A stretch of DNA of 64,000 nt from Robiginitalea sediminis (GTDB taxonomy: Bacteria > Bacteroidota > Bacteroidia > Flavobacteriales > Flavobacteriaceae): assembly GCF_002198115.1 (NCBI RefSeq), contig NZ_NGNR01000001.1, positions 936,296 to 1,000,295 of the forward strand. Direction: 5' to 3'. Below are positions 12,641-57,297 of this stretch, one piece after another. How positions within the stretch are numbered: the stretch's first letter is position 1; each line of letters begins with the position of its first letter. Below the pieces are notes generated by a model. It was not told where the DNA came from, ran no database searches, and saw nothing but the letters and a program-made list of their open reading frames with translations. Made by a program: the position numbers and the translations under genes.

Positions 12641-12646
12641 TGGGCT

Positions 12647-13141: not shown

Positions 13142-13145
13142 TCGT

Positions 13146-13454: not shown

Positions 13455-13486
13455 TTCAGTTTTACAGGATAGCTATATCCAGTTTT

Positions 13487-13511
13487 GAGGTTTTCAACTA
13501 TTGAAAACCTC
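13487..13511 (+). promoter_or_regulatory. 25-bp perfect palindrome upstream of the RND efflux gene
   Basis: Arms GAGGTTTTCAA and TTGAAAACCTC (11 bp) around CTA, between the DUF6660 gene and the CzcA-CzcC gene. It lacks a following T-run, so it fits an operator better than a terminator. The element's own Fur-family regulator (19139) is the natural candidate to bind it, but this is inference. Confidence 0.5.
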
Positions 13512-13577
13512 GAAGGTACGTTTGCACTCGCTCGTGAATGTATCACAATATTTCAACTGAATTAACTTCCACATTTT

Positions 13578-17921: not shown

Positions 17922-17922
17922 A

Positions 17923-19122: not shown

Positions 19123-19138
19123 TAAACACTACTATAAA

Positions 19139-19555
19139 ATGAAAGAAATAGAACAAAGACTTACCGAAAATGGCGTTCGTCCTACTGCAATGCGAATATT
19201 GATTTATAAGTATTTAGCAGAAAAAGAAGCAGCGACATCGTTAACGCATATTGAGACCGCTTTCGCGAAAGCTGACAGGACAACCTTATACCGTACCCTT
19301 AAAACCTTTGAGGATAAAGGCGTAGTACATCAAATAGACGACGGCACTGGAATACAGAAATACGCTTTGTGCGAAACTGGATGTAATTGCGAACTCGAAC
19401 AGGATTTACACTTACATTTTCATTGTAACAATTGTAACGAAACCATTTGTCTGACCGAGCACAAAATCCCACATATTAATCTGCCGGATGGCTATGTGGC
19501 TGAAGATGCCAATCTAGTTTTAAAGGGGATTTGTGAAAAGTGTAGCGGCAAATAA
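19139..19555 (+). CDS. Fur-family metal-responsive repressor (Zur-like)
   Basis: 138 residues. The N-terminal winged helix (NGVRPTAMRILIYKYL ... RTTLYRTLKTFEDKGVV, residues 11-63) is the Fur DNA-binding fold. The C-terminal half has the dimer and metal sites: HLHFHCNNC (91-99) and CEKC (132-135), i.e. two CxxC pairs holding structural zinc, plus H91/H93/H95. An additional Cys cluster, CETGCNC (78-84), is unusual and may tune metal choice. Sitting between CzcB and the P-type ATPase, it likely represses the efflux genes. Which metal it senses cannot be told from sequence. Confidence 0.88.
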   Translation: MKEIEQRLTENGVRPTAMRILIYKYLAEKEAATSLTHIETAFAKADRTTLYRTLKTFEDKGVVHQIDDGTGIQKYALCETGCNCELEQDLHLHFHCNNCNETICLTEHKIPHINLPDGYVAEDANLVLKGICEKCSGK

Positions 19556-19599
19556 ATGCACTTCTGTTGCACACTTGTTTTAGCCATCTTACACAGAGT

Positions 19600-21567: not shown

Positions 21568-21586
21568 AAGGATTGCTGACATGAAT

Positions 21587-22648: not shown

Positions 22649-22654
22649 TTTCAG

Positions 22655-22676
22655 GTGACGGAAAAGTGACGGTTTT
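22655..22676 (+). repeat. Right arm-type repeat, overlapping the integrase promoter
   Basis: GTGACGGA then AAAGTGACGGTTTT, the same orientation and 21 of 22 bases as 10651-10672. It starts 7 bp upstream of the integrase ATG, so binding there could both position the integrase for recombination and block its transcription. About 110 bp of AT-rich DNA separates it from the right att core. Confidence 0.6.
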
Positions 22677-22785
22677 GACTTAAAAATAGGAAAAAGAAAG
22701 AAAGCACCTCAAAATTTTAACATTTTAAATACCTGATAATAAGTCAAATAGACACAAATCGAATCAAATAAAATTATTTCCTAAA

Positions 22786-22801
22786 TCCCACCCGAGGTAC
22801 G
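22786..22801 (+). repeat. Right attachment site (16-bp att core)
   Basis: Second copy of TCCCACCCGAGGTACG (first at 10588-10603). Sequence differs immediately on both sides of the pair, so 16 bp is the exact repeat. It marks the right boundary of the element; the base composition and gene style change here back to the host type. Confidence 0.88.
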
Positions 22802-22885
22802 AATAAGCCGAAAAAAGGTGGAAGCGAAGCGAGTTTCAAAAAATGAAGCTCGCTTCAATTTTTTGAAGGAGCTTTTAGCTTCCTT

Positions 22886-23164
22886 TTTCGGCTTTCAAAG
22901 CGAGCTCGAAGGGAAGCTTGCCGCGAGGCAAGCAATCCCACCCGAGAGCGAGGATTGTTGACTTCCCATAGACTGAATGCAGCGAAATGCTTCCTTATTT
23001 CGGCTTTAAAAGCGAGCTCGAAGGGAAGCTTGCCCCCAGGCAAGCAATCCCACCCGAGAGCGAGGTTTGTTGACTTCCCATAGACTGAATGCAGCGAAAT
23101 GCTTCCTTATTTCGGCTTTAAAGCGAGCTCGAAGGGAAGCTTGCCCCCAGGCAAGCAATCCCAC
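22886..23164 (+). repeat. Tandem 112-bp repeat (two full units and a partial third) carrying att-core relics
   Basis: Units start near 22886, 22998 and 23110. Each contains CAAGCAATCCCACCCGAG-like sequence (at 22936, 23048 and, altered, 23159), identical over 11 bases to the first part of the att core. Each also has a 7-bp stem GCTTGCC/GGCAAGC with a tetraloop (GCGA in unit 1, CCCA in units 2 and 3), which a GGGA/TCCC pair extends. Upstream at 22821-22867 is another inverted repeat (GAAGCGAG / CTCGCTTC). No credible gene lies between 22802 and 23170. Confidence 0.8.
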
Positions 23165-23170
23165 TTGAAA

Positions 23171-23896
23171 TTACACCCTCCGGTACACCTCCTCAAAAGG
23201 AACCCGGAATCGCGATCCGTAAACCCCTTCCGGCTTGCGGATGCCACAGCCGATAACCATGGTAATTTCTGCACCTGAAGGCAGCCCCAGGGCTTTTCTG
23301 ACCCGAAGGCTGTCGTGCCCTTCCATGGGGCAGGTGTCGTACCCGATGGCCGCCATGGATAGCATGAAATTCTCTGCTGCCAGGGCCGCGCTTTTGTGAG
23401 CGACGATGCGCATGTCCGATGCTCTCACCTGCCGGTACATGGGCCGGAACAGGCCGGCTATACTAAAACCAATGTATTTAACCATGCCCAGGATGCCCAG
23501 AAAATCCGTGTAAAGCGTAGGCATAATCCTGGTGTAGTAGGAGAGCACAAACTTTTCCCGCTGGGTATATTCGTTCATTGGTTTTTTCCCGAACCCTTTT
23601 TGGAGGAATTCCAGGTTAGCCTTAACGCGGGAGCGCCACTTGTCCTTGCGCGCCACTACAACAACCAACTGCCGGGCAGTTCGGGCGGCGGGCTGGTCCA
23701 TGCAGGCATGTACAATTTTAGACTTTACGGCCGGGTCTGTCACCTGGTAAAATTCCCAGAGCTGGAGGTTGGAACTGGTCGGGGCCAGAACGGCATTCTC
23801 AATACAGGCCCTCACTTTTTCGGGGTCGATGGGTTCTTCCTGGTAGATCCTTACAGAACGTCTGTATTGAATGGCTTCGGTTACGGTCTTTTCCAT
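23171..23896 (-). CDS. Nitroreductase-family FMN oxidoreductase
   Basis: 241 residues. Start MEKTVTEAIQYRRSVRIYQEEPIDPEKVRACIENAVLAPTSSNLQLWEFYQVTD shows the FMN-binding RRSxR and the APTSxNxQPW-like loop (here SNLQLW), and later AALAAENFMLSMAAIGYDTCPMEGHDSLRVRKALGLPSGAEITMVIGCG is the conserved second FMN/dimer segment. Probable NAD(P)H-dependent reduction of quinones or nitro compounds in the cytoplasm; the substrate cannot be told. An insert of about 40 residues around EYTQREKFVLSYYTRIMPTLYTDFLG is not typical of the short family members. It is the first host gene after the element. Confidence 0.87.
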   Translation of the reverse strand: MEKTVTEAIQYRRSVRIYQEEPIDPEKVRACIENAVLAPTSSNLQLWEFYQVTDPAVKSKIVHACMDQPAARTARQLVVVVARKDKWRSRVKANLEFLQKGFGKKPMNEYTQREKFVLSYYTRIMPTLYTDFLGILGMVKYIGFSIAGLFRPMYRQVRASDMRIVAHKSAALAAENFMLSMAAIGYDTCPMEGHDSLRVRKALGLPSGAEITMVIGCGIRKPEGVYGSRFRVPFEEVYRRV

Positions 23897-24006
23897 AGCG
23901 AGGCAGGGATATTGGAAATAAGTAGATTTCAGGCGTAGTTCAAAGGTAAGACTTCTGCGAGCATTGTGGGAGTTTATCTGTCTAAAATTCAGTAAGATTG
24001 CAGGGT

Positions 24007-44056: not shown

Positions 44057-44515
44057 ATGAACATCGACGAGTATATGGCCGAGCGGGTAGACGACCAGAT
44101 CCGCTGGTACTGTAAAAAAAGCGCTATTAACAAAAAGCTGCATATTCGGTTCAACAGTTCGGTTATTGTGTTCAGCTCCATGATCCCATTTGTATCGGGC
44201 TTTGAGCTATCGGAATTCCTTCCCTTTATTACGTTGTCTTCCGCAGAACTTGCCGGCCTTTTTGGGGTGATCACCGCATCGCTCACGGGGATTATCGCCC
44301 TGATGAAATTCCAGGAGAAATGGACGGTGTACCGGGTAACGGGCGAGGCCCTGCAGCGGGAGAAATTGTTCTTTAAAACGGGCGCTGCTCCGTATCATGG
44401 GAGGGATTCCTACCCTCGTTTTGTCCAGAATATCGAACAAATCCTGGGCAGCGAAAACACCCAATGGTCCGCCACCGTAGGCCCTTCCGAAGGGGGGTCG
44501 GCCGAAACGGCCTGA
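44057..44515 (+). CDS. DUF4231 membrane protein (SLATT-like)
   Basis: 152 residues: an N-terminal helix (EYMAERVDDQIRWYCKKSAINKKLHIRFNSSVIVFSSMIPFV, first membrane segment), a second membrane hairpin (LAGLFGVITASLTGIIALMKFQEKW) and a soluble helical end (YRVTGEALQREKLFFKTG...). The Q-I-RWY ... W-x-x-YR-x-x-x-E-x-L-x-x-E layout is that of DUF4231, a relative of SLATT two-helix pore-like effectors found in conflict systems. It converges on the PGDYG-like gene, 6 bp away, at the edge of the accessory island. A membrane effector role is inferred from family and place. Confidence 0.78.
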   Translation: MNIDEYMAERVDDQIRWYCKKSAINKKLHIRFNSSVIVFSSMIPFVSGFELSEFLPFITLSSAELAGLFGVITASLTGIIALMKFQEKWTVYRVTGEALQREKLFFKTGAAPYHGRDSYPRFVQNIEQILGSENTQWSATVGPSEGGSAETA

Positions 44516-44521
44516 GGACGG

Positions 44522-44761
44522 TTACTCTTCCCCTTCCTCGGTAAGGAGCTGGTAGGTAGCTTCAAAGATTTCCCGGTCTATGGGGTACATCTCCCCATGT
44601 ATGCCCACCATTAGCCAATCGCCCGCTTTGCCATCGAGGGTGCCTTCCATAGTTTCCACGCGGAACGGTTCCTCTATTTGGAAACATCTTACGGGAATTG
44701 GCCGCTTTACCGCCTGGCGGAACGGCAGGTTGGGAATCTGGTTTTTTTTAAAGGTTTTCAT
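44522..44761 (-). CDS. Small PGDYG-like protein
   Basis: 79 residues. FRVETMEGTLDGKAGDWLMVGIHGEMYPIDREIFEATYQLL has the GDWLM-x-G-x-x-GExYPI-x-x-x-x-F pattern of PGDYG-domain proteins, a small beta-rich fold of unknown function (here AGDW in place of PGDY). It follows the caspase gene by 8 bp on the same strand, making it the last gene of a three-gene operon. Confidence 0.65.
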   Translation of the reverse strand: MKTFKKNQIPNLPFRQAVKRPIPVRCFQIEEPFRVETMEGTLDGKAGDWLMVGIHGEMYPIDREIFEATYQLLTEEGEE

Positions 44762-44769
44762 GGATCGTT

Positions 44770-47013
44770 TCAGGTGAGGAGTTTCTCCTTCAGGAAGGTT
44801 GTAAAGTCGTCTGTCCCTCCAGGGGGGTGGTAAAGGGCCAGGTAGGCGGCATGGGCGTTGAGGTGCATGGATATTTTCTGGCGGATTTCGGCTAGTGCTG
44901 CAGCCTTCTCATAGAACTCCCGGGAGGCGTACAGGTTCCCGATATACAAATGGGCTTCTGCAAGGGTGGCATAGGTCCACAAGGAGTCGTCGCATTTTTC
45001 TGCGGCTTCCAGGGCCTCGGTGGCATACTCTTTCATAGCGGGTTTGTTCTCCTCCATTACCAAGCTCAGGAAGGCCAGGTTAATGGCGTGGTAATACACC
45101 TGTTCCAGGTCTGCAGCCTCCCGGGCCATATCCAGGGCAATGCTGTAATACACCTGGGCGGTTTCCCCGGTTTTCCGGTTGGGTTTTTTCAGGTATTCCC
45201 GCTTGTGCCGGCCGCCTATTATCCCCATAAGGTCTGTCGATTTGGAAGCGACGGGGTGGTCTTCCAGAAGTTTCATGGCGGCATCGTGCCGGTCCAGGCC
45301 TTCCAGGGCAAAAATCAGTTGGCGCAACCCCTTGATGTCCAGGGAATCTGCCATGGGCAGGAGTTCCTTAACCACGGCATCATACCTGCCCAGGGCCAGG
45401 TTGCGCTCCCGGGCATCCCCGAAGGCGCCCAGGGAATCGGAATGGGTGAGCGCCTGCTTTACCATTTTGCAGACGGCATCCTCCCCGGATCTGGGTTTAA
45501 CGATGGAAAAGTGGTTCCCCTCCAGGGTAAGGCAGGAGCCTTCGTCAAAGTCCGCAAAGCAGGATTCCGCACTTACAAACGGGTCATCTGTGGCCGCAGC
45601 TGCCAGGAGGGTAAACGGAAGGCCCGATGCAAATTGCGCCTCCCATTCGCGCCGCAACCACGAGATAAACGCCCCTTTCCCGCTCATTTCCGCATAGGGC
45701 TTGTTCCACTCCGCCTGCAGTTCCGCTTCGGATAGACCGTTACTGGGGCATGCCAGCAGCAAGAGGTGGGAAACCTTGTCCCGGTGCTCCTGGGGCATGT
45801 CCAGAAGGGCGCGCTGGGCAATGAGCCCGCCCATCCCATGGGCAACGATGGCGATGCGGTCGTAACCTTCGTATTTGTATTTCATGGAGGTGCGCAGATA
45901 TTCCGTTATCCGGCCGATATCCGTGATCCCGCCCCAGACGTGTTTTCCGTTTTCGGGTTGGATAAACTGGGAGTACCCGAAAGGCTTCATATCCCACCCG
46001 TCGAATTCCGGGTCTTCCATAAGCATGTCTGGAAGGGCCCCGAAGGTCTCGGAAGATTCCCCGGATAATCCGTGGATAAAGAGGATCAGGTTGTTGGCGC
46101 CTTTGGTTTCCCGGTAGACCTGGCGCATTTCCTTGGCTTTAGGTCCTGTGGCCGTTTCCGCTTCGGGCAGGGATGCGGGCTCCAGTTTCCGGCGCATCTC
46201 TTCCGGGATATAGCTCAGGATAAAGTTGTCGTACATCTCCAGGTTTACATAGGGCTCCTGTCGGATATCCAGGGGAGGGTCGCAATCGCGGGCTACTTGT
46301 TCTATGGTTTCGGGAATCACTTTCAGCAGGTACCCGGCCACCTCCAGGATGCGCACATACGGATCTTTGAAATCGGTCATGTGCTGCCCGCGCAGGGCCA
46401 TGAGCAGGTGTTTGGTGAAAAGGCTGTTCCGGTCATCCTCCAACTGGTAGGATTGCTGCTCCTCCTTGCAGGATGCGATGACGGAGATGCCCCGCTCGTT
46501 GTCCACTTTCTGGGCCAGTCCTTCCAATTTGCCGAAGGTTTCCGCCTGGGATTCCTTTTTGTGGAGGCGGGGGCTGAAGCCGCCGGCTGCCATCCCGGTG
46601 GCGTGGCAACAGTCCATGAAAAAAATGAGCCTTCGGGTTTTCAGGCTGTCGATCTTTTCCCGGATCTCGGCTGCCGTGACCCAGGCTGCAGTATAGTCGT
46701 CGTACTCCATCCCCTCTCCGATCCCATGGGGGACAAAGTGGAAGGTCCCATCCAGGACGTCCCCGTGGCCGGAATAATACAGGAAGACAGAAGAATCCGG
46801 GTCGGTTTTTCGGATGAGGGTGTCGAAGGCGCCCAGGATCCCTTTGCGATCGGCGTTCTCCCCGGTTAACAGCAGGACATTCTCTTCAGGATACCCGCAA
46901 AGGGCGGGGTCAATAAGGAGTTCCGCTACGTCCTGGGCATCGCCAATGGTGTCCAAGCCATCCTCGTATGAAATGCCGATCAGGAGGGCATAAGCGTTTC
47001 TAAGTGGGCTCAT
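44770..47013 (-). CDS. Caspase-domain protein with dead alpha/beta-hydrolase and helical repeats
   Basis: 747 residues in three parts. Residues 1-260: a C14 caspase/metacaspase protease with catalytic His in YYSGHG (H83) and Cys in FFMDCCHATG (C136 by alignment with DSCHS). Residues about 300-520: an alpha/beta-hydrolase with oxyanion strand LILFIHGLSG and a nucleophile elbow AHGMGG in which the usual Ser is Gly, so it is probably inactive and used for binding. Residues about 540-747: TPR-like helices (ALDMAREAADLEQVYYHAINLAFLSLVMEE ..., partial). This layout suits a sensor-triggered suicide protease. Upstream gene is 11 bp away; downstream gene 8 bp. Confidence 0.82.
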   Translation of the reverse strand: MSPLRNAYALLIGISYEDGLDTIGDAQDVAELLIDPALCGYPEENVLLLTGENADRKGILGAFDTLIRKTDPDSSVFLYYSGHGDVLDGTFHFVPHGIGEGMEYDDYTAAWVTAAEIREKIDSLKTRRLIFFMDCCHATGMAAGGFSPRLHKKESQAETFGKLEGLAQKVDNERGISVIASCKEEQQSYQLEDDRNSLFTKHLLMALRGQHMTDFKDPYVRILEVAGYLLKVIPETIEQVARDCDPPLDIRQEPYVNLEMYDNFILSYIPEEMRRKLEPASLPEAETATGPKAKEMRQVYRETKGANNLILFIHGLSGESSETFGALPDMLMEDPEFDGWDMKPFGYSQFIQPENGKHVWGGITDIGRITEYLRTSMKYKYEGYDRIAIVAHGMGGLIAQRALLDMPQEHRDKVSHLLLLACPSNGLSEAELQAEWNKPYAEMSGKGAFISWLRREWEAQFASGLPFTLLAAAATDDPFVSAESCFADFDEGSCLTLEGNHFSIVKPRSGEDAVCKMVKQALTHSDSLGAFGDARERNLALGRYDAVVKELLPMADSLDIKGLRQLIFALEGLDRHDAAMKLLEDHPVASKSTDLMGIIGGRHKREYLKKPNRKTGETAQVYYSIALDMAREAADLEQVYYHAINLAFLSLVMEENKPAMKEYATEALEAAEKCDDSLWTYATLAEAHLYIGNLYASREFYEKAAALAEIRQKISMHLNAHAAYLALYHPPGGTDDFTTFLKEKLLT

Positions 47014-47024
47014 AGGTTTGGTTT

Positions 47025-49028
47025 TTATTGCCAGTAGCGCATGATGCGCCCGAAGGCCTCCCGGTCGTAATACATCCTGAGGAGGGGGTCGTTGTGGAAC
47101 GCCCCGGTTTCATACCAGTGCCCTTCGGCAATGGCCTTCAGGAGGTTGTCCAGACAGGCCTTCTCCTGGCCTGTCCCGGCATAGAATTGGGCCAGGGAAT
47201 AAAAGACTTCCCCATACTGGTAGGGGCCCCTTTGGTTTTCCATAGCCCCGATAAGGGCTTCTGCCTCCTCAATTTTGCCCTTTTTGTAGAGGGTTATGGC
47301 CAGCAGCGCACCGTAGTTGAAGTTGGTGCTGTCCCGCTGGTACCCCTCTTTCAGATACGGTTCTGCGGTGTCGTGCCTGTCCCTGTAAAAAAGCAATTCC
47401 CCCAGCAAGGGGCCGTCGGCATCCCTTTGGGAATCCATCAGCGGCAGAGCCTGGTCCAAGTAGGCATGGGCATCCTCGGTCCTGCCTTCTCTGAGGCATT
47501 CCTTCGCCCCGAAAAGCAGGAAGTCCGCCTTCAGGTTTCGGTCCGAAACCACTTGCAGGTTCTCCATCATATCTTCCACGGCTTCCCACCGACCCGCGCG
47601 GACATATGCCCTTAGGAGGATCTTTTTCAGGGTCCAGAACCCGGATTGGCGGGAAAAGGGCTCCAGCAATGCAATGGCCTGCTGGTAGTTGCCCATGTCG
47701 ATCTCCGACATGGCCTTTATCTTGTATCGCTCCACACAGAAATCGCATTTGTTGAGGTCCATTTCGGACATGTCAATCTCCTGGAAAATACTGTCTACCG
47801 CCCCGGGCCGGTTGGTTAGCTGGAGGGAGAAAAGCATCATGTTGGAATTGGTTTCCAGGTGCATGGGGGTAATATTGTATTCCCCTTGCTGGTATCGGTA
47901 GACGTTCCTGTGGTTGCCCCTAAGGAGGGCATCGTAGAGGTTCAGCAGTACCTGCTGGCGGTCGTATAGCCCGGTTTCCCTCCGCATCAGTTGCAACAGG
48001 GAATCCGACGTGCGGTACATCCCCTGGTTAAAATAGTACATGAACCGGAACGCCTTGGGTTCAAAAAAATCGGGATCGGCGTCTATGGAAGCATTGAGCA
48101 AGTCCAGGTATTGCCGGTCATCCTCGTTGCGCCAGGACTTGGCCTTGCTGAAAAGCTCGTAGGCCTCGTACCGGGGCGGGTGCTCTTCCAGGCTCTCCGC
48201 TGCCCGTTCCTCTTCTATAAAATACCCCAGGATACGCTGGTTTATGGCCTCAATACAGTCCAACGGACTCTCGGCATCGCAACTCACCGGGTCGAAGGAG
48301 ACCAGGGTGCGGTTCATGGCCTCATCGGTGATGGAGCACTGAAAGAGCATCCTGCCATCCCTCAGGTAGTAATCCCCTTCAATGATTTTGGAGGGTTTCA
48401 GGTATTCCGTTACCCGGATATTGTTCCTGACCACACTGTTGTCTGCAGGGAGCACGCTGGCGCGTAGGACCTTGGAATAGTCGTCTATGATCTGGGGGGA
48501 GATCACCTGCCCCAGTTTGTTGCGCGTAATCCCATGGATAATCCAGTCCACGGCCATTTCCCCGATGATATTCTTGGTGGAATCCCCGGTGAGGTTCTCA
48601 AATTGCAACACGGCAATCTTGTTGCTCTGCTCGAAAGTGACCTCGAAGGTGGGTTTTACAAAATTCCGGTTTACGATGACCAGCACGATCCCCGTACAGA
48701 TCAGGGCGATGATCGCCAGAAAGGAAAAATACAGTTGCTGGAAGGGGCTCTTCTGGAATTTGCCGGGCACCGGGACTCCCTCCGGGTCCAGCAGGGGTTT
48801 TTTATTGAGGTTAGGGGCCAGCTGGAATTTCCATACCCCGTAGATGTAAAGTGGAAAGCCTATGAGCAGGGCAATGAGCCCGTATGCGACGATCTTAAGG
48901 GAAAAACCCAGGGGTTCTGCGATAAGGGCAATGACCTGAAGCAACACCCAGCTCGATACGATATAGATGGATAGGTTCTTCAGTACATTGTTTTCCCTGC
49001 ATTCCCGGATGAATTTGTTGAGCTTCAT
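47025..49028 (-). CDS. Membrane protein with TolB/FlgO-like domain and TPR repeats
   Basis: 667 residues. The start MKLNKFIRECRENNVLKNLSIYIVSSWVLLQVIALIAEPLGF resembles the N-terminus of bacterial adenylate-cyclase/TolB-like TPR proteins (ELRRRNV...YLVxxWxLLQVA). Three membrane helices fill residues 15-125, then a periplasmic-like FlgO/TolB domain (KIAVLQFENLTGDSTKNIIGEM, about 140-270) and TPR repeats (about 280-667). A DNA-binding or cyclase domain is absent. It heads the operon with the caspase protein (11-bp gap), so it may be the membrane sensor or scaffold that feeds the caspase. Function inferred from context only. Confidence 0.72.
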   Translation of the reverse strand: MKLNKFIRECRENNVLKNLSIYIVSSWVLLQVIALIAEPLGFSLKIVAYGLIALLIGFPLYIYGVWKFQLAPNLNKKPLLDPEGVPVPGKFQKSPFQQLYFSFLAIIALICTGIVLVIVNRNFVKPTFEVTFEQSNKIAVLQFENLTGDSTKNIIGEMAVDWIIHGITRNKLGQVISPQIIDDYSKVLRASVLPADNSVVRNNIRVTEYLKPSKIIEGDYYLRDGRMLFQCSITDEAMNRTLVSFDPVSCDAESPLDCIEAINQRILGYFIEEERAAESLEEHPPRYEAYELFSKAKSWRNEDDRQYLDLLNASIDADPDFFEPKAFRFMYYFNQGMYRTSDSLLQLMRRETGLYDRQQVLLNLYDALLRGNHRNVYRYQQGEYNITPMHLETNSNMMLFSLQLTNRPGAVDSIFQEIDMSEMDLNKCDFCVERYKIKAMSEIDMGNYQQAIALLEPFSRQSGFWTLKKILLRAYVRAGRWEAVEDMMENLQVVSDRNLKADFLLFGAKECLREGRTEDAHAYLDQALPLMDSQRDADGPLLGELLFYRDRHDTAEPYLKEGYQRDSTNFNYGALLAITLYKKGKIEEAEALIGAMENQRGPYQYGEVFYSLAQFYAGTGQEKACLDNLLKAIAEGHWYETGAFHNDPLLRMYYDREAFGRIMRYWQ

Positions 49029-49138
49029 TGCAGCGCGGAGGGGTTGGTTTCAATGAGAGGGAAAGCTCCGATATTGTTTGGTTTAGTGGCTATTTTTAAC
49101 TAATATAGTGAATATTCAAACCAATCGACAACAATCAC

Positions 49139-49375
49139 ATGTCCGATCAGAAACAACCAAACCATCCCCTGAAGCCCAAAAGTGGTCCGGGGGTAAAATC
49201 GAAGTCAGGACCCGGGGTAAAGTCCAAATCCGGCCCAGGGGTCAAATCCAAGAGCGGGCCCGGGGTTAAATCCAAAAGTGGCCCTGGGGTAAAGTCCAAA
49301 TCAGGACCAGGAGTGAAATCCAAATCGGGCCCTGGAGTTAAATCCAAAGGGGGCCCGGGGTTAAAGTCCCAATAG
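49139..49375 (+). CDS. Octapeptide-repeat protein (KSKSGPGV x8)
   Basis: 78 residues: MSDQKQPNHPL, then eight tandem octapeptides of consensus KSKSGPGV (49172-49363), then KSQ. The protein is very basic and disordered. The eight DNA units differ at many third codon positions (Ser as TCA, TCC, AGC, AGT, TCG; Gly and Val likewise vary) while the peptide stays the same, which is evidence of selection on the protein and for this frame; the opposite strand is also open but its peptide varies. It is divergent from the TolB/TPR gene. No known family recognised; a binding or tethering role, e.g. to nucleic acid or an acidic partner, is speculation. Confidence 0.6.
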   Translation: MSDQKQPNHPLKPKSGPGVKSKSGPGVKSKSGPGVKSKSGPGVKSKSGPGVKSKSGPGVKSKSGPGVKSKGGPGLKSQ

Positions 49376-49496
49376 GGCAGTAAGCGCTGTTCCGGTTCTG
49401 GCCCCACAGTGTCGGATCAGCATGTATGGCAGTTGATGGCAGGCCCTGGTCCCAGCTGCAGGTAAACCTATGGGATAGTCTTAAAATTCAAGTTTA

Positions 49497-49826
49497 GTGA
49501 AATTCAACCTGGCCGAGCAATTGGCCGTAATCAAGATAGTGGAACAGGTTATCCGGGCGGACAACCTGATCTACGAAGGGGAAGCGGTGTTTATTTCCCA
49601 ATTGGCAAGTGTCCTCCAGTTCGACCCGAAGCTCTTTAAAAAGGCCCGGGAAGTAGAGGAGGAGCAAGCACTTGCGGTATTGTCGGAAATGCCCGAAAAC
49701 AAGAAACACGCCCTGGCCATCCTCCTCAACGAGGCGGCAAGTGCCGACGGGCGGGTATCGGAACGAGAGTTGCAACTCATCGCCGGGATCTTCGACAATG
49801 TCGGAATCCGGGTAGAGCGGTTGTAA
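49497..49826 (+). CDS. TerB-like protein, copy 1
   Basis: 109 residues from GTG 49497. All-helical; KFNLAEQLAVIKIVEQVIRADNLIYEGEAVFISQLASVLQF and ILLNEAASADGRVSERELQLIAGIF show the TerB/DjlA N-terminal pattern of two related half-repeats with acidic metal-site residues (IRADN ... YEGE; ASADGRVSERE). TerB domains occur in tellurite-resistance and stress/conflict clusters. A close paralogue lies at 51624. A terminator follows 29 bp after its stop. It shares the intergenic zone with the octapeptide-repeat gene and may be co-transcribed with it. Confidence 0.75.
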   Translation: MKFNLAEQLAVIKIVEQVIRADNLIYEGEAVFISQLASVLQFDPKLFKKAREVEEEQALAVLSEMPENKKHALAILLNEAASADGRVSERELQLIAGIFDNVGIRVERL

Positions 49827-49855
49827 TTCCGCCCTTAATAGTCGGGCTGGAATAT

Positions 49856-49892
49856 AAAAAAGGCCCTGGGAATTTTCCCAGGGCCTTTTTTT
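49856..49892. terminator. Bidirectional terminator between TerB copy 1 and icd
   Basis: GGCCCTGGGAA TT TTCCCAGGGCC (11-bp perfect stem) with an A-run before and a T-run after, serving both the plus-strand TerB-like gene and the minus-strand icd. Confidence 0.9.
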
Positions 49893-49923
49893 GGCAATGG
49901 TTTTACTGTACTTAGCTAATTCA

Positions 49924-51423
49924 TCATTGCCCCTGCCCGAGGGAATACCCGCGCACGCCGTCGAACCGGTAGAGGTTTTCGGTCTTGATTACGTCGACTT
50001 CCGTCAGGGCAGCTTTGTGGAGGAGCTCGATGATGTCCTGGGGCCGGACCCGAACGCCCTCCCCAGAGCTAAAGCGGCACCTCCAGTGGTCCGTGCAGAA
50101 GGTTTCCTCAAAACCTTTGGGCCAAACCATAACCCCCCGGTTGGTAATCATGGCAAGTTTCAGGGTGGCATTCTCCAGCAGTTGCAGTTTGTAGGCGAGG
50201 TCCCTGGCATCCTGCCCACGCCAATCCACGAACAGGTCTACCCCGTCCAGAGTTTTGGTTTTTTCCTTTGCCCGCCGGTATGCGGGGATTTCAATCCGTT
50301 CGAACCCGGAATAATCCGCGGCCTGGAAGCGTCTGGGTTTCTGCCCCAGGTTCTGGCAGACGGCTTCCGCAAATTCCCGGGTCCCTACTTTGCGGGTACT
50401 CAGGTCCGGGCGGTAGATATCCCCGGTATGGATCCCGGATTCCAAAGTCCGCAGCCAGGCGTTCTGGATGCGTTCGGCTACTTCGAACTGCCCCAGGTAG
50501 TTAAGCATCAGGATAGCAGCCTGCAGCAGGCCGGAGGGGTTGGCTACATCCTTGCCGGCCAGGTCGGGGGCGCTGCCGTGAATGGCCTCGAACATGGCAC
50601 ATTCCCGGCCGATATTGGATGAGCCTCCAAGACCAACCGAACCGGATATCTGCCCCGTGATGTCCGAAACAATATCGCCGTACAGGTTAGGCATGACCAC
50701 CACATCGAAATCTTCGGGTCTGTCCGCAATCAGGGCCGCCCCGATATCTATGATCATGTGGTTGCTCTCGATGTCCGGATACTCGGCTGCGATTTCGTCA
50801 AATACCCTGTGGAAGAGCCCGTCAGTCTGCTTCATGATGTTGTCCTTGGTCAGGCAGGTTAGCTTTTTGCGGTTCTGGCTGCGGGCGTATTCGAAGGCGT
50901 AGCGGATGATCTGTTCGCAGCCCGGGCGGGTAATCAGTTTCAGGCACTGTACCACTTCCTGGGTTTGCTGGTGCTCGATGCCTGCATAGAGATCCTCCTC
51001 GTTTTCCCGGATAATGACCACATCCATCTCCGGGTGCTTGGTACGGACGTAGGGGGCGTAACTCCTGCAAGCCCTTGTATTGGCAAAAAGACCGAGGCTC
51101 TTGCGCAGGGTTACGTTCAGGCTTTTGTACCCTCCGCCCTGGGGCGTGGTAATGGGGCCCTTCAACAGGATCCGGTGTTTCCGGATGGCATCCCAGGCCT
51201 CGGAAGGAATCCCGGAACTCACCCCGCTCAGGTAGGCGCGTTCCCCCATTTCGATTTCCTCGAATGCTAAAGGGGCGCCGGCAGCCTTAAGGATTTTCAG
51301 AACGGCCGCCATAATCTCCGGGCCAATCCCGTCCCCATGCGAGACGGCTACGGGGATTGGGGTTTCGGAATAGAATTCAGGGGCAGAAGAACCCTGGGTG
51401 TACGAAAGGGTAGTGGAACTCAT
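49924..51423 (-). CDS. icd: NADP-dependent isocitrate dehydrogenase
   Basis: 499 residues from ATG 51423 (MSSTTLSYTQG); an in-frame TTG 30 nt upstream is less likely. Oxidative decarboxylation of isocitrate to 2-oxoglutarate. Motifs: VSHGDGIGPEIM, LLKGPITTPQGGGYKSLNVTLRK (substrate Ser/Asn/Arg), VVIIRENEEDLYAGIEH, NLYGDIVSDITGQISGSVGLGGSSNIG (metal Asp residues) and AIHGSAPDLAGKDVANP (nucleotide loop). The extra C-terminal domain of about 150 residues is typical of this Bacteroidota/Rickettsia-type dimeric enzyme. A core metabolic gene standing between the two TerB-like paralogues of the accessory island. Confidence 0.95.
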   Translation of the reverse strand: MSSTTLSYTQGSSAPEFYSETPIPVAVSHGDGIGPEIMAAVLKILKAAGAPLAFEEIEMGERAYLSGVSSGIPSEAWDAIRKHRILLKGPITTPQGGGYKSLNVTLRKSLGLFANTRACRSYAPYVRTKHPEMDVVIIRENEEDLYAGIEHQQTQEVVQCLKLITRPGCEQIIRYAFEYARSQNRKKLTCLTKDNIMKQTDGLFHRVFDEIAAEYPDIESNHMIIDIGAALIADRPEDFDVVVMPNLYGDIVSDITGQISGSVGLGGSSNIGRECAMFEAIHGSAPDLAGKDVANPSGLLQAAILMLNYLGQFEVAERIQNAWLRTLESGIHTGDIYRPDLSTRKVGTREFAEAVCQNLGQKPRRFQAADYSGFERIEIPAYRRAKEKTKTLDGVDLFVDWRGQDARDLAYKLQLLENATLKLAMITNRGVMVWPKGFEETFCTDHWRCRFSSGEGVRVRPQDIIELLHKAALTEVDVIKTENLYRFDGVRGYSLGQGQ

Positions 51424-51623
51424 CGGGTGGTATTTTACATTTGTCGGGGACAAAGATGCGGGATTTAATACATATATTTTTATTTATCTTTAATATGTAA
51501 AACATAAGCATAATATATGTAAAGAGTATTTTCCTTCATCTAGCAATGGCACCGCCGTTCTGATTTAGTTCGTATATTGTGCGTTCGAAAACGTACCGTT
51601 ATCCACCTTTACTGATTAACCCC

Positions 51624-51950
51624 ATGGAGTTCAACCTACTAGAAAAGCTCGCTGTTTTAAAGGCCATAGACGAGGTCATTCAAATGGACAATACCGTAAA
51701 GCGCGGTGAAGTCCGCTTTATGGACCGCCTGGCCGACGCCATGGATTTCCAACCAGAACTCATCCTGGAGGCCCGCAAGGCGGAACCCGCCGAGGCCCTT
51801 GCCGTACTTCGCGAGATGCCCGATCCGCAAAAGCAAACCCTGGCCCGGCTGATGAACGAAGCCGCCAATGCGGATGGGGATGTAGATGAGCGCGAAATTC
51901 AGTTTATCTACAGGGTATTCTCTGCTGCAGGAATAGAGCTGGATCTCTGA
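51624..51950 (+). CDS. TerB-like protein, copy 2
   Basis: 108 residues from ATG 51624 (in-frame earlier starts would add an unconserved basic stretch). EFNLLEKLAVLKAIDEVIQMDNTVKRGEVRFMDRLADAMDF and RLMNEAANADGDVDEREIQFIYRVFSAAGIEL align end to end with copy 1 (EFNL/KFNL, LAVLKAIDEVIQMDN/LAVIKIVEQVIRADN, ANADGDVDERE/ASADGRVSERE, and identical length), so they are paralogues from an old duplication that now flank icd. The intergenic stretch before it (51424-51623) is very AT-rich with two TAATATATG-type repeats but no gene. Confidence 0.75.
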   Translation: MEFNLLEKLAVLKAIDEVIQMDNTVKRGEVRFMDRLADAMDFQPELILEARKAEPAEALAVLREMPDPQKQTLARLMNEAANADGDVDEREIQFIYRVFSAAGIELDL

Positions 51951-52044
51951 CCCTTTACCTTAATTTTTAGCCTGAGGCGCCTCCGCCTGTCATTTATCAT
52001 GCTGCCGGCCGCATTTTCTGCGTAGCTTCCCGGAAAGGAAGCCC

Positions 52045-52557
52045 ATGACCCGTAGTACGCCCGTATTGCTGATTGTTTTCGGCCTTCCCGGAACCGGGAA
52101 GACCACCCTGGCCGAAGCCCTGGCGGAGCGCCTGGGCTGGCCTCATGCCAATACCGATGAATTACGGGCTTGCCTCGGGCTTCGCGGGCAGTATGACCCC
52201 ACTACAAAGGAGCAGGTGTATACAGCGCTGGAAACCTGGGTGCGTGAAAGACTCCAAAAAGGGATTAGTGTGGTCATTGATGCCACTTTTCACAGGGCAA
52301 CCCGGCGGGAACGGTTTATGGCGCTTGCGGCGGGATTAGGAGTAGATTGCATATGGATATGTACAGAAGCCTCCGAAGAAGCCGTTCGCGGACGGGTATC
52401 CCGTAGCAGGCCTTTAACCGAAGCGGATTTTGAGGTATTTCTAAGCGTACGCGAGGCCTTTGAACCGCCGGCAACTCCCGTAATCAGGGTCAATACAGAG
52501 ACCGAGCCGGTTTTCGGGGCAGTTGGGCGGATCCTCAAAATGCTGGGTTATGAATAG
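52045..52557 (+). CDS. P-loop kinase, N-terminal partner of a split ATPase/aminoglycoside-phosphotransferase pair
   Basis: 170 residues: Walker A VFGLPGTGKTTLAEAL, NTDEL-RACLG, lid-like VIDATFHRATRRERF and ISR-like RGRVSRSRP, i.e. a zeta-toxin/gluconokinase-like AAA_33 kinase. In many bacteria this domain is the C-terminal half of a ~500-residue protein fused to an aminoglycoside-phosphotransferase-like kinase; here it is separate and comes first. It overlaps the next gene by 8 bp. Substrate unknown. Confidence 0.8.
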   Translation: MTRSTPVLLIVFGLPGTGKTTLAEALAERLGWPHANTDELRACLGLRGQYDPTTKEQVYTALETWVRERLQKGISVVIDATFHRATRRERFMALAAGLGVDCIWICTEASEEAVRGRVSRSRPLTEADFEVFLSVREAFEPPATPVIRVNTETEPVFGAVGRILKMLGYE

Positions 52558-53557
52558 GGATGAGGTCCTATCCTTGCTCAAGTATCTAGAGGGCTCTTCC
52601 CCTGGCGGGGCCATGCTGGTCGAAACTCATGCTTCCTGGGTACTGCTTACCGACACCCTGGCCTACAAGATCAAAAAGCCCATCCGATTCAGTTTCCTGG
52701 ATTTTTCCACGAAAGCGCTTCGTAAGATGTATTGCGAAAGGGAGGTAGCGCTCAACAGGAGGCTGGCACCGGACATGTACATAGGTGTTGTTCCGCTATG
52801 CAGGGAGGGATCCGGAATACGGATAGGAGCGACGGGCGAAAAAGGGGTCGATTTTGCTGTAAAAATGCGCCGGATGGACGATTCGCGCCAACTGGACCTG
52901 CTGCTGGCCAAAGCGGAGGTTTCCGTTGCGGAAATCCGGGAATTGGCCCGGATGGTGGCCGGCTTCCACCGCCAGGCCACCAGGGTTTGGCAGGCCGAAG
53001 GCTGGGAGGACCACTTCCGGGAGTTTGCAGACCTCCTATCGGTTAAGGAAACCCTTGAATCTGTTCTTGGGCAAGGCACTGCTTCTTTTTTGGCCCGGGT
53101 CATATCCCGGGCGGAAGGCTTTCTTCGGGACCGTTCCCCCCGCATTGAAGCGCGGAAGGCCGCGGGCTTTGTGATCGACGGACATGGGGACCTGCACGGC
53201 CGCAATGTGCTCATGACCAACCCGCCTGTGGTTTTTGACTGTATCGAGTTCAGCGATGAACTGCGTACCCTCGATGTCCTGAGCGAAATCGGGTTCCTGA
53301 TTATGGACCTGGAGCGATTTGGCCGGGAGGATTTGGCCGAGGCGTTCCTGGAGGCGTACCGGAGCCAGTTCGAATGTATCCTATGCGATACCGATCATGA
53401 GCTGTTGCTGTTTTACAAGCTCTACCGCGCCAATGTGCGCCTGAAGGTCGGGGCCCTGGCCTTGGGTCCCGAACCACAGCTGGCAGCCAGGGATATGCTG
53501 CAGGGCTATTTCAATCTATTCAGGGCTTATGCCGGGGAGCTGTTGGGGGAAGGCTGA
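52550..53557 (+). CDS. Aminoglycoside-phosphotransferase-like kinase
   Basis: 335 residues from ATG 52550. Kinase-like fold: ETHASWVLLTDTLAYKIKKPIRFSFLDFS (nucleotide lysine region), the catalytic loop DGHGDLHGRNVLMTN and the metal site VVFDCIEFSDELRTLDVLSEIGFLIMDLE. This is the APH-like half of a protein family usually fused to an AAA_33 ATPase, supplied here by the overlapping upstream gene. True antibiotic resistance is unlikely; small-molecule or stress-related phosphorylation is the better guess. It converges on the STAND gene 6 bp away. Confidence 0.82.
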   Translation: MNRDEVLSLLKYLEGSSPGGAMLVETHASWVLLTDTLAYKIKKPIRFSFLDFSTKALRKMYCEREVALNRRLAPDMYIGVVPLCREGSGIRIGATGEKGVDFAVKMRRMDDSRQLDLLLAKAEVSVAEIRELARMVAGFHRQATRVWQAEGWEDHFREFADLLSVKETLESVLGQGTASFLARVISRAEGFLRDRSPRIEARKAAGFVIDGHGDLHGRNVLMTNPPVVFDCIEFSDELRTLDVLSEIGFLIMDLERFGREDLAEAFLEAYRSQFECILCDTDHELLLFYKLYRANVRLKVGALALGPEPQLAARDMLQGYFNLFRAYAGELLGEG

Positions 53558-53563
53558 GGGGGC

Positions 53564-55927
53564 TCAGTCCAGGCCGGTTTTCAGGCGGTTGATATCCCGG
53601 ATGATTTCTTCCTGCTGGCTCTCGCTGAAGTCGGAAAGATCCACCACGGTATAGTGGACCTCGGTCCCTTCGGGATGGTTCCAAAGCACCGCCCCAAAAA
53701 TATTAAAGGCATTGGTGGTGCCGGACCCATCGTTGCCGCCAACCACATTGTTAAAGGCATTCAGGTAGTACCGGTCGAAGATGAGTTGCTGCCCGGGCTG
53801 GTCGATGGTATTGCCGGTAATCCAGCGGATGGCCACGTCGGTTTGGGGGGAATTGTAGAACCCGTTGGTGATATCGGACCCGGAAAGGGATCCATCGGAG
53901 TTCAGATCCCTGATGAGTTGTACCCCATTGCGGTAGGGCATCAGGGCCCACCCTGCTTCGGTGGTTTCCTTCCGCAACAGGTGTTGGCCCTTGGGTAGGA
54001 ATGCCAGGTCCTTACCGTCCGCAAAGTACCCTGTGCCCCCGAGGAAGCGGTAGACCTTTTCGTTGGCCAGTAGGATAAAGTAGGCCTTGGGGTTACGGGC
54101 ATCGAAAATCCTGCGCGCCGTATTGATCCTGACAGCCACCAGGTGTACGTCTCCCGGGGCGAATTCCCATTGGGAAGGCCCACGGCTGTCGGAGGACCCC
54201 TGCCTGGAGGCTACCCCTGTATATTCCGCATCAGGGTTTGCCCTTACCCTGCCTTTAAGGGCGTTGAGTTTATCGATCCATTCGGAATGCCACTGGGCGG
54301 GCAGCTTAACGGCTATATTGTCGTTGATGGGGGCCGGAGGGGTTACGGATTTCCCTGTGTCATCGATAAAAACCGTATCGATCCGGACTCCCCGGGCAAT
54401 CCCCCCGATACTGTCCAGGTCCTGGCGCAGTCCTTCCAGACTGTCGCGCTGTTGCTCGGTGAGCAGCACCAGGGAATCGATCACCGTGACCTCCCCCACA
54501 AGGGTATTGGTAACGGTGTCTCTGGGCATGTTCCGGATAACCCCGTTAAGGCTGTCGATCTGCCCTTCCAGGCTTTTAATTTCACGGTACTCCACTATGC
54601 CCCAGGAGGCAAAGCCCACGATGGCCAGCAGCATGAGCAGCCCCGCCAGGCGGAGGCGCCGCCACAGGACTTTCTGCCGGTGTTTCCGTGCGGTTTTCTG
54701 TATGGGTGCCACCAGGGTATCGTGACTGAGCTCCAGGCTGGTGCCCCCGGTGGAATCCAGTTGGGAACGCAGCAGGCGCCGCTCCACCAGGGTGTTGAGC
54801 AGGGCCACGGGAACCTGGTACTGGTGGGTTATGAGACGCTCCGGTAAGGGAATCCGGTTTCCGTTGATGATAAGCCTACTTTCGACCAGGTTCCTGGCTT
54901 TACCCCGGTTTTTTCGCGGTAGGCCTTCAATAATTTCCCGGTAGTGGTCTTCAAAGATCGTTTCAGGGTTCCCCAGGTCTGAAGGCGTCAGTTCCAGGGA
55001 GGCCGCCCCGGGTTGTTTTTGTGCTTTGGCCATGATGGCTTCCTCCGCATGCTGGGCAATGAGTTGCAACTGGAAGGTTTCAATGCGCTGGGTGCGTTTG
55101 TCTTTCAGGCTGGAGAGGATCTTATCCAGGGCACCTTGCGAATAGGTGAAAACGGGGGATGTATAGGGGCCTTCCAATGCGGCGGGCTTTTGGAGGGCCT
55201 CCAGGGCCTGCATCCCATTGAGGGGCTTGAGCTCGTAGGTGTGCCTGAAAATATACGGGATATTGGGTTTGAGGGCGTCCAGGGAGCCCAGGTGGTCGTG
55301 GCGGACCGAAAGCAGGACCTTGCAATTGAGCGGGGCCAGCCAGCTCTCCAGGTCACTTTCGGTAAAGGTGCCCGCCCCGGAAAGATGATGCGCTTTTATA
55401 ATCCGGCGGATGGCCTTTGGCGGCTTGGGCCTCAGGACATCTGCCAAAGCCCTCCCAAAGGATTCCACATGGGGTTGGTGAAAATGGAATAACTCCTCAA
55501 ACTGGTCGAAGACCAGGGTGTTCCAGGGGGTTTCAGGCCCGGCAATCTGCAGGGACTTCAGGTAGCACCAGAGCAGGGCGGAAAGATCGTCCGGAAGTTC
55601 CTCGGAGACCTGAAGGGTATCTCCCAGAAAAGGAGCCGCACCCAGATGGGTTTTGAGCTGCTCCAGGACCAGGTCCAAGGGGTTTTTATCCGGCTCGTTG
55701 AAGCGAAGTTCCAGGATACGGTGGTTTTCTGTATCGCGCAACCTGGGCAGGACCCCGGCCTGCAGCAGGGATGTCTTCCCGTATCCCGACTTGCCGAAGA
55801 GGACCACCAGGGGTTCCAGGGCCACCCGCGCAGACAGGGCGCGAATGTCCGCATCCCTGCCGAAGAACAACTTGCGGTCTTCTTCGGAGAAGGGTCTTGC
55901 ACCGGGATATCTGAATTGTTTTTCCAC
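53564..55927 (-). CDS. STAND ATPase (nSTAND1-like) with membrane helix and C-terminal extracytoplasmic-like region
   Basis: 787 residues. The start QFRYPGARPFSEEDRKLFFGRDADI is the lead-in of nSTAND1 NTPases, followed by Walker A GKSGYGKTS (45-53) and Walker B LVFDQFEELFHF (about 140-150). A helical regulatory region reaches about 420, then a membrane helix (LAGLLMLLAIVGFASWGIVEY, about 425-447), a coiled coil (LEGQIDSLNGVIRNM; LTEQQRDSLEGLRQDLDSI) and a 250-residue C-terminal domain with an EF-hand/dockerin-like DLNSDGSLSGSD. No WD40 or TPR repeats are present, unlike most STANDs. It is 26 bp downstream of the SIR2-like/TIR gene, clearly one operon: the switch of a TIR system. Confidence 0.82.
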   Translation of the reverse strand: MEKQFRYPGARPFSEEDRKLFFGRDADIRALSARVALEPLVVLFGKSGYGKTSLLQAGVLPRLRDTENHRILELRFNEPDKNPLDLVLEQLKTHLGAAPFLGDTLQVSEELPDDLSALLWCYLKSLQIAGPETPWNTLVFDQFEELFHFHQPHVESFGRALADVLRPKPPKAIRRIIKAHHLSGAGTFTESDLESWLAPLNCKVLLSVRHDHLGSLDALKPNIPYIFRHTYELKPLNGMQALEALQKPAALEGPYTSPVFTYSQGALDKILSSLKDKRTQRIETFQLQLIAQHAEEAIMAKAQKQPGAASLELTPSDLGNPETIFEDHYREIIEGLPRKNRGKARNLVESRLIINGNRIPLPERLITHQYQVPVALLNTLVERRLLRSQLDSTGGTSLELSHDTLVAPIQKTARKHRQKVLWRRLRLAGLLMLLAIVGFASWGIVEYREIKSLEGQIDSLNGVIRNMPRDTVTNTLVGEVTVIDSLVLLTEQQRDSLEGLRQDLDSIGGIARGVRIDTVFIDDTGKSVTPPAPINDNIAVKLPAQWHSEWIDKLNALKGRVRANPDAEYTGVASRQGSSDSRGPSQWEFAPGDVHLVAVRINTARRIFDARNPKAYFILLANEKVYRFLGGTGYFADGKDLAFLPKGQHLLRKETTEAGWALMPYRNGVQLIRDLNSDGSLSGSDITNGFYNSPQTDVAIRWITGNTIDQPGQQLIFDRYYLNAFNNVVGGNDGSGTTNAFNIFGAVLWNHPEGTEVHYTVVDLSDFSESQQEEIIRDINRLKTGLD

Positions 55928-55953
55928 TGCTTTTTCCTTGCGGGCCTTTTGGG

Positions 55954-57297
55954 CTACCGGGTACCTTCCCGGATTGCTTTTATGAGTTCCTCAAAATGGG
56001 TGCTTTTGTGAATGTCCGGCGTGAGGACATTCATGTCGGCCACCTTGTTGATGATGGTGTCGAAATCGTCGTAAATCCGCTTGAAGCGTTCGTATTCCAC
56101 CCCGATGGTCTTCAGGGCTTCGGCCCCGGAGCGCTTGATTTCCTCATCGAGTTCATCGAGCTTCTTTTTCCATTCCTGTTTGTATTCCAGGCGCTTGTTC
56201 ACGTCAAAAATCATGGCATCTTCCAATACGATGGGGAAGATGCGGCCTTCAAAGTCTTTGTGCCGGTAGATTTCCGTCAGCTCATACATACAGTACCCGG
56301 ATTTCAGGTATTTATCGCTGACGATAACCACTACCCCCTTGGCCTCCCCGATCCGGTTCATGAATTCCATAATGCCGCCCTTGTACCCCAGGTCGTTCTT
56401 GTCCCGTACCAGGCGGATCTGGTTGGCCTCCAGGGTGGTTTCAATCAGGTTGGCCATTTCCTCGCTGGCGCCCTTCCAGGCATAGGAGATAAAAATTTCG
56501 GTAGGGGCAACCTTTTGTGCGGGTGGTTCTCCTATTTGCCCCTCGCTCCAGGCCTGGTGAAGGGCATTGATAATCTCTGCCGCTGTGCTGTTTTCAAAAA
56601 ATTCCACATCGAATTCCGCATGGAAGAAATTCTTGATGTTGTCCTGGGTGATATCGTGGGAGTTCAGGAGTTTGTCCTCTATCTGCATGAGCCAGAGCAG
56701 CAGCTGGAAATACCATTTATCGAAGCTGAACCCGAAAAAGAGGACCGTTTTGGCTTCCCGAAGGATGCTTTTAATCTTCAGTCCGTTGTCTCCCATAATG
56801 CTGTGGAGGTACTCATAGAGGTCCCGGTAGGTGAGGATCATGGAGTCCAGCTCCCGGTGGTCCCCAAAGATGTTGTAGATGTATCGGGCCTGGGTTTTGT
56901 TGGGCTCCTTGGGCGCCTGCCCCTTGTGGTAGAAATCATAGTCGAACCCAATACCCTTGTCTTTCAGCACCTTGTTGAGGGTAACGTCCGGGGCGGTATT
57001 GATGATTAGGGGGAAGGGGATGTCCGCAATTTTCTGGTACAGCTCGTTGGGCTGCAGGGCTTCGAAGAAATCCGATACTTCATCCTCTATTAGGAGCTCC
57101 CTGGTTTTGGTATCGAAACTCACAAATTCCTGGTCGTCGTAGTAGCGCACCTTGTCGCCCAGGCTTTCCGCTAGGTACTCGTTCAGCCGGGCATGGATAC
57201 TCCGGCCGTCTTCGCTGAGCAATTGCGGGCCCAGGATCACCAGGCAGGAACCTTCGTTGATCCGTTTTACAATACGCTGTAAGGTGGCGTCCTTCAT
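55954..57297 (-). CDS. SIR2-like / TIR fusion protein
   Basis: 447 residues. Residues 1-240 have the strand/helix order of SIR2_2-type domains (SCLVILGPQLL; PFPLIINTAPDVTLNKVL; YIYNIFGDHRELDSMILTYRDLYEYL; TVLFFGFSFDKWYFQLLL), but the usual Asn of TTNxD reads NTAPD and the catalytic His of LHG reads IFG, so NAD hydrolysis there is doubtful. Residues 266-400 are a TIR domain (TEIFISYAWKG...; SDKYLKSGYCMYELTEIY) with the likely catalytic Glu339 in CMYE. The TIR probably cleaves NAD when triggered, while the degenerate SIR2 part senses ligand. First gene of the operon with the STAND ATPase. 57298-57559 upstream has no gene. Confidence 0.85.
   Translation of the reverse strand: MKDATLQRIVKRINEGSCLVILGPQLLSEDGRSIHARLNEYLAESLGDKVRYYDDQEFVSFDTKTRELLIEDEVSDFFEALQPNELYQKIADIPFPLIINTAPDVTLNKVLKDKGIGFDYDFYHKGQAPKEPNKTQARYIYNIFGDHRELDSMILTYRDLYEYLHSIMGDNGLKIKSILREAKTVLFFGFSFDKWYFQLLLWLMQIEDKLLNSHDITQDNIKNFFHAEFDVEFFENSTAAEIINALHQAWSEGQIGEPPAQKVAPTEIFISYAWKGASEEMANLIETTLEANQIRLVRDKNDLGYKGGIMEFMNRIGEAKGVVVIVSDKYLKSGYCMYELTEIYRHKDFEGRIFPIVLEDAMIFDVNKRLEYKQEWKKKLDELDEEIKRSGAEALKTIGVEYERFKRIYDDFDTIINKVADMNVLTPDIHKSTHFEELIKAIREGTR

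Follow-up and report, generated by a model that had tools for sequence, protein, structure and literature searches.

What system, if any, is encoded by a cluster of conflict-type genes that includes a short peptide made almost entirely of octapeptide repeats? This question is raised by a 64,000-nucleotide stretch of the marine bacterium Robiginitalea sediminis, here called the window (contig positions 936296-1000295), from a 3.3 Mb genome of the family Flavobacteriaceae. A sequence-only reading had described an island of genes from conflict-related families, a description that fits the gene content. The families that it named are present (Pfam and NCBIfam; Table 1), apart from the TolB label given to the membrane TPR protein, for which Pfam lists no TolB family.

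Table 1. Features of the gene cluster (positions in the window)
Feature	Position	Strand	Evidence or remark
SLATT_1/DUF4231 predicted pore protein, two transmembrane segments	44057..44515	+	Pfam E 1e-15 and 8e-11; NCBIfam SLATT_1 8.7e-29
PGDYG-like small protein, last in caspase operon	44522..44761	-	PF14083 E 3.9e-5
Caspase (C14B type) fusion: Peptidase_C14, DUF676-type alpha/beta hydrolase and TPR-S in one chain	44770..47013	-	
TPR protein with N-terminal hydrophobic membrane region	47025..49028	-	topology predicted from the protein sequence
ACTAATATAGTGA, promoter- or operator-like element between the divergent TPR and peptide genes	49099..49111	+	
Tandem octapeptide-repeat protein, 78 aa, unit VKSKSGPG	49139..49375	+	
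Two TerB proteins	49497-49826 and 51579-51950		
Isocitrate dehydrogenase (icd)	49924-51453		between caspase unit and TIR unit
AAA_33 gene with a further gene	52523-53557 (further gene)		between the two units; further gene without NCBIfam match
nSTAND1 NTPase, partner of the SIR2-TIR gene	53564..55927	-	PF20703 E 3.6e-31
SIR2-like (SIR2_2, PF13289) and TIR_2 (PF13676) fusion	55954..57297	-	

The caspase fusion protein

The His-Cys dyad motifs of the caspase domain (SGHG and DCCH) occur without exception in the 45 homologs, out of 46, that include this region. The same 45 proteins have an Asp in alpha-1, an Asp two residues before the Cys and an acidic residue at 184-186; these are equivalents, assigned by motif position and not by superposition, of MALT1 Asp365, Asp462 and Glu500, which bind the basic P1 residue according to the accessible part of the structural literature (PMC4357240). 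Judged by these residues, the caspase has the dyad and the acidic S1 positions of C14B enzymes that cut after Lys or Arg. HMMER searches against the PDB matched it to metacaspase-1 and metacaspase-4. A structural model of the caspase domain was of moderate quality (pLDDT 71, pTM 0.76), and 49 of its 50 best PDB matches in Foldseek were metacaspases or MALT1, the other being a Geobacter protein, with moderate TM-scores of at most 0.55. The full-length model was poor (pLDDT 61), with MALT1 and TPR proteins as its best matches. The protein resembles MALT1 and the metacaspases (C14B) in its fold class, its His-Cys dyad and its acidic S1 positions. In PADLOC v2.0.0 its best match was a general caspase model.

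The nucleophile position of the hydrolase part is occupied by Ser in 30 of the 46 proteins, by Gly in seven (including the window protein) and by Asp in one, and this part is absent from eight. The window hydrolase lacks the nucleophile Ser of GxSxG and is probably non-catalytic, because Gly replaces it; the same Gly is found in the hydrolases of four Robiginitalea loci (the window, L042, L040 and L021).

Two small genes adjoin the fusion gene. The PGDYG-like gene, whose PF14083 match (24.4 bits) is below the curated cut-off of 27, lies downstream of the caspase gene in many loci. The SLATT_1/DUF4231 gene is convergent to the caspase operon, and genes of its family occur near the caspase at seven of 43 caspase loci (the window, L018, L040, L042, L076, L078 and L079).

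Full-length homologs appear confined to the family in the genomes covered. A search of 395 genomes of the phylum yielded eight caspase matches, two of them full length and both from Flavobacteriaceae; the six from other families cover the hydrolase and TPR-S parts only, and no module was noticed at the two short loci listed outside the family. At an E-value of 1e-20 the window caspase matched no phage record and two plasmid records, the latter through the caspase part (33-41% of the query); carriage of the module on a plasmid or phage as a mobile defence island was not found. Among relatives the module is patchy and unlike a core gene set, with the caspase fusion in four of ten genus genomes.

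A peptide gene that accompanies the TPR-caspase pair

Alignments of the caspase and TPR proteins were searched against 397 Flavobacteriaceae genomes. Caspase matches were found in 40 genomes and TPR matches in 40, with 37 common to both. The caspase occurs without the TPR protein in G159 (TPR gene fragmented) and, at contig ends, in G240 and G374, and the TPR protein without the caspase in G046, G261 and G378 (the last at a contig end). In 39 of 45 cases the TPR gene precedes the caspase gene on the same strand, within 0.9 kb in 38 and at 5.7 kb in G206. These pairs are spread over 29 genera, and every one of the 39 TPR genes has a short peptide ORF in divergent orientation, recognised by its place and reading frame, with the motif judged by eye. 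None of the five TPR genes without a caspase directly downstream (those of G046 and G261, the second copies in G191 and G363, and that on contig C86 of G286) has such a peptide, as no ATG-initiated ORF of at least 24 aa starts 60-140 nt away; the G378 gene, at its contig end, has one. The association of peptide and caspase at TPR genes yields a Fisher p of 9e-7, uncorrected for kinship, which serves as a guide only because related genomes are not independent.

Peptide and TPR starts are mostly separated by 100-130 nt (110 nt in the window, on opposite strands). The exceptions are G324 (75 nt) and G255 (264 nt), and in three peptides a later Met fits the usual distance. The congener G008 yielded no caspase fusion and has an intact TPR gene (63% identity), with a 29-aa remnant ORF in the peptide's place: the caspase has been lost and the peptide has decayed. 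In G159 (L103), a 52-aa ORF at the peptide's place ends in one motif-like copy. A second short caspase at L096 (13424-14941) has neither a TPR neighbor nor a peptide; therefore, the peptide goes with the TPR-caspase pair. The sequence-only reading had listed the repeat peptide, but missed that the pair's constant companion is this gene and not TerB.

The repeat ORF of the window is a genuine gene under selection. Its eight octapeptide units are all distinct in DNA but fall into two amino acid types; per unit pair, 4.54 codon differences are synonymous and 0.50 non-synonymous. Across 16 arrays selected for clear units the corresponding values are 1.5-6.5 and 0-1.05, and eight of these arrays show no amino acid change among unit copies. 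The amino acid unit is thus what is selected, because copies within arrays differ mainly at synonymous places, and this pattern rules out the repeat as non-coding DNA. Such fast turnover of units, combined with near-identity within each array, makes the family a clear example of strong selection acting on a short peptide.

The units of the window peptide and its close homologs read VKSKSGPG, VKSKTGPG or MTSKEGPG, and homologs in G001, G003, G005 and G112 retain SKxGPG along the whole array. Across genomes the unit period ranges from 7 to 16 aa, with other units such as NPKDGGGI and SKPGGSIKPQGT. Copy number shifts fast while the unit is kept, with 9 and 22 units counted in the same-genus genomes G208 and G375. 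An array is not essential, because at least seven peptides hold a single motif copy (G127, G202, G206, G218, G262, G271 and G287); the single-copy peptides are 40-47 aa long and carry the motif C-terminally, and the G206 peptide is acidic, its net charge being -14. Aromatic residues are absent from 37 of 41 peptides, and no export signal or long hydrophobic stretch was seen in them by eye. The peptide is probably unstructured.

An exact ACTAATATAG lies 33-41 nt upstream of the peptide ATG at 26 of 40 loci and is absent from 14, among them the decayed G008 locus. The 13-mer ACTAATATAGTGA is unique in the genome carrying the window; among the genus genomes it occurs once each in G000 and G003, twice in G001 and in none of the other seven, a rarity that rules it out as a generic promoter. 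Next to the second copy in G001, neither a repeat ORF nor a gene of the module was seen. The ACTAATATAG element may be a promoter or operator.

Several modules depart from this arrangement. G071 (L090) has two tandem TPR-caspase-peptide modules with differing repeat units, as if mutually insulated, and G286 has the first of these two and part of a second module on one contig, with a third kind elsewhere. A membrane-like gene of 166-229 aa stands between the TPR and caspase genes in many genera (L087:9296-9946 and similar); it is absent from the window and had no Pfam match in the two cases tested. At L106-L112 the caspase is of a short class (457-495 aa) that lacks the hydrolase, yet the peptide and TPR genes are retained. 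The TPR protein of G255 (L079:6854-9109) starts with a guanylate/adenylate cyclase domain that replaces the first membrane part. A second small caspase (L077:11315-12127) and a patatin-like phospholipase (L078:7826-8911) adjoin the caspase module at their loci.

Possible roles of the peptide

The family constitutes a peptide gene bound to one TPR-caspase pair, and its repeats may spell a protease recognition site. The motif hydrophobic-x-[PS]-[KR] is present in 33 of 41 peptides, against a mean of 11.8 and a maximum of 19 in 300 shuffles, and in 32 of the 39 peptides translated from DNA; the eight of the 41 without it are those of G349, G071a, G071b, G229, G092, G091, G218 and G135. A looser motif, K or R followed by G within two residues, is not enriched (39 against 38.2 in shuffles). 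Summarized by eye, the common unit has the shape [ST]K-x-G-x-x-[IVLM]-x-[PS]-[KRQ]. The C-terminal end of the peptide falls exactly at a site in eight of 39 peptides. In the accessible part of a published specificity study, MALT1 prefers Leu at P4, Ser, Ala or Pro at P2 and Arg at P1, with P1' almost restricted to Gly (PMC6207715). The repeat units resemble this preference, as far as it is described there, at P4, P2 and the basic P1; however, the arrays mostly offer Lys and not Arg at P1 and seldom Gly at P1' (most have S, T, D, E or K there), and the enzyme is bacterial and accompanied by TPR-S. In some arrays Lys is followed by Pro (SKPG), as at every repeat Lys in G349 and at all but the last in G163. 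Lys-Pro bonds are rarely cut by proteases.

The explanation that we prefer, and to which we give an even chance, is a TIR-activated caspase module of immunity or regulated death with a dedicated caspase-directed peptide, acting as decoy, inhibitor or pro-peptide. A TIR protein, here SIR2-TIR together with the nSTAND ATPase, would detect a threat and make an NAD-derived signal; the TPR-S part of the caspase fusion would read this signal, and the C14B-type caspase domain would then cut proteins after Lys or Arg. The TPR membrane protein could provide a second input from the envelope side. The peptide, presumably made from its own divergent promoter, would be a dedicated partner of the caspase, a cheap and mostly multi-copy array shaped like the target (hydrophobic-x-Pro/Ser-Lys). 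Most likely it would occupy or soak up the caspase active site, thereby setting an activation threshold; once fired, the protease may also cleave it into short peptides that are all identical. A decoy or inhibitor role is favored because SKPG units would resist cutting, and a pro-peptide role where arrays end exactly at Lys, because of that ending. In its favor are the linkage of peptide and caspase, the decay of the peptide in G008, the selection on the unit, the motif enrichment, the C14B-type residues and fold class, the TIR genes near most caspases and the two G071 modules, whose differing units are expected of insulated pairs. The motif-less peptides, the Lys-Pro units, the non-Gly P1' residues, the single-copy peptides, the 12 caspase loci without a TIR gene in the stretch examined, the 8.9 kb between TIR and caspase genes in the window, the peptide-less second caspase of L096 and the poor to moderate caspase models count against it. 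To our knowledge, little is known of the natural substrates and inhibitors of bacterial caspase-type proteases. If the explanation is correct, the peptide provides a ready assay substrate for the caspase, shows how a dangerous protease is restrained and extends TIR-caspase immunity by a peptide component.

It is possible, if doubtful, that the peptide is instead a ligand of a TPR domain, in the membrane TPR protein or in TPR-S, and does not address the caspase active site. In RRNPP systems, peptides of the Phr or AimP type are read by TPR receptors, and the peptide would be an intracellular analog with the C-terminal motif as its active part. The peptide and TPR genes form the divergent pair, which recalls the RRNPP arrangement of a short peptide gene beside a TPR gene with the motif often C-terminal; the C-terminal motif of the single-copy peptides points the same way, as does the end of 18 of 39 peptides at most four residues past the last site. 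However, unlike RRNPP peptides, those found here show no export signal by eye, consist mostly of tandem copies and track the TPR-caspase pair: the five TPR relatives without a caspase directly downstream have no peptide, and in G008 the loss of the caspase went along with decay of the peptide but left the TPR gene intact. In addition, the positive-inside rule would place the membrane TPR domain outside the cytoplasm.

A stricter form of the pro-peptide role, which we regard as rather unlikely, holds that the repeat gene is a multi-copy pro-peptide that the caspase, once triggered by a TIR signal, cuts after each Lys, giving numerous copies of a single short peptide that would serve as an amplifying or cell-to-cell messenger or a threshold-setting inhibitor. 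The yeast alpha-factor precursor is a multi-copy pro-peptide, and like it the arrays consist of tandem identical units ending in Lys, as if for a protease specific for basic residues; unlike it they are bacterial, show no secretion signal by eye and have a caspase as the candidate protease. Universal cleavage after Lys is untenable for units whose Lys all precede Pro. If this form were true, the peptides would constitute a genome-specific, fast-changing code paired one-to-one with the protease.

It is improbable that the array is a multivalent scaffold, neither substrate nor inhibitor, that gathers caspases for proximity activation. The fast change in copy number with a conserved unit, as between G208 and G375, resembles polyvalent binders, whereas the peptides with one motif copy run contrary to the need for multivalency.

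TIR and STAND genes near the caspase

In a profile search, 31 of the 43 caspase loci proved to have a TIR gene no more than 9 kb from the caspase, and at 28 of them the distance is no more than 3 kb. No TIR gene was found in the stretch examined at the other 12 (L077, L079, L083, L094, L098, L100, L104, which is a short contig, and L107-L111). The TIR types are unlike one another (SIR2-TIR, TIR510 and a short TIR). Among 29 TIR proteins, one per locus, Pfam identified TIR_2 in all 29, ThsB_TIR in 12 and SIR2_2 in three; at the two remaining loci the homolog is cut by the locus end (L021) or the contig is short (L066). Alignment column E76, which we take to be the catalytic glutamate, is kept in at least 90% of the 29 proteins, and the window TIR domain shows SxxCxxEL by eye.

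In eight other genomes, eight proteins encoded no more than 7.1 kb from the caspase match the C-terminal parts of the two STAND proteins. The pair of nSTAND1 and SIR2-TIR genes is also present in G001 and G008, and SIR2-TIR in three of ten genus genomes. Because TIR and the C-terminal parts of STAND recur near the caspase, the window's SIR2-TIR/nSTAND unit probably represents the local version of a partner that recurs, and the two window units are best read as one system. The sequence-only reading had linked them by closeness only and named a neighborhood survey as the check; the survey bears out the recurrence of TIR types and STAND C-terminal parts in other genomes, so that "only" no longer applies. 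That the TPR-caspase-peptide unit and the SIR2-TIR/nSTAND unit are unrelated neighboring conflict systems is improbable: the window caspase lies 6.5 kb from the nSTAND gene and 8.9 kb from the SIR2-TIR gene on its strand, with TPR, icd, TerB and other genes between, within-genus synteny can be plain descent and 12 loci show no TIR, but these points are set against the proximity of several TIR types to the caspase at most loci and of STAND C-terminal segments in the eight other genomes.

Read as one system, the module resembles type IV Thoeris in its predicted logic, a likeness that does not amount to proof of membership. As set out in the accessible part of its description, the TIR protein of that system makes N7-cADPR, which activates a caspase-like protease (PMC12847820). 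Shared with it, to that extent, are a TIR gene near a gene for a caspase-type protease and the predicted passage from signal to protease; here, however, one chain joins the caspase to an alpha/beta hydrolase and TPR-S, and there are in addition a TPR membrane protein, a PGDYG-like protein, the repeat peptide and, in this clade, a STAND ATPase. The accessible parts of Kaur et al. 2020 (PMC7159879) and 2021 cover caspase-hydrolase pairings, which occur in VMAP ternary systems (2020), and EACC systems. The systems of the 2020 paper, as far as accessible, likewise combine a caspase with an alpha/beta hydrolase, and TIR and SLATT proteins also occur there; unlike in the VMAP systems, the two domains here form one chain and the hydrolase often lacks Ser or is absent. 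No MoxR, vWA or VMAP family was detected among the window proteins run through Pfam. The accessible parts of both papers contain no mention of the repeat peptide, and no description of such a peptide as a partner of TIR-caspase systems was found in the open-access literature.

Of the genes between the two units, TerB and icd look like local neighbors. They were considered as constant parts of the module and rejected because G002 and G009, in which the search found no caspase fusion, also have the two together. The position of icd between two TerB genes is repeated in G005. Elsewhere in the window, a region of lower GC content (43-47%) at 10000-24000 begins near a tRNA-Leu gene and is possibly a separate insertion.
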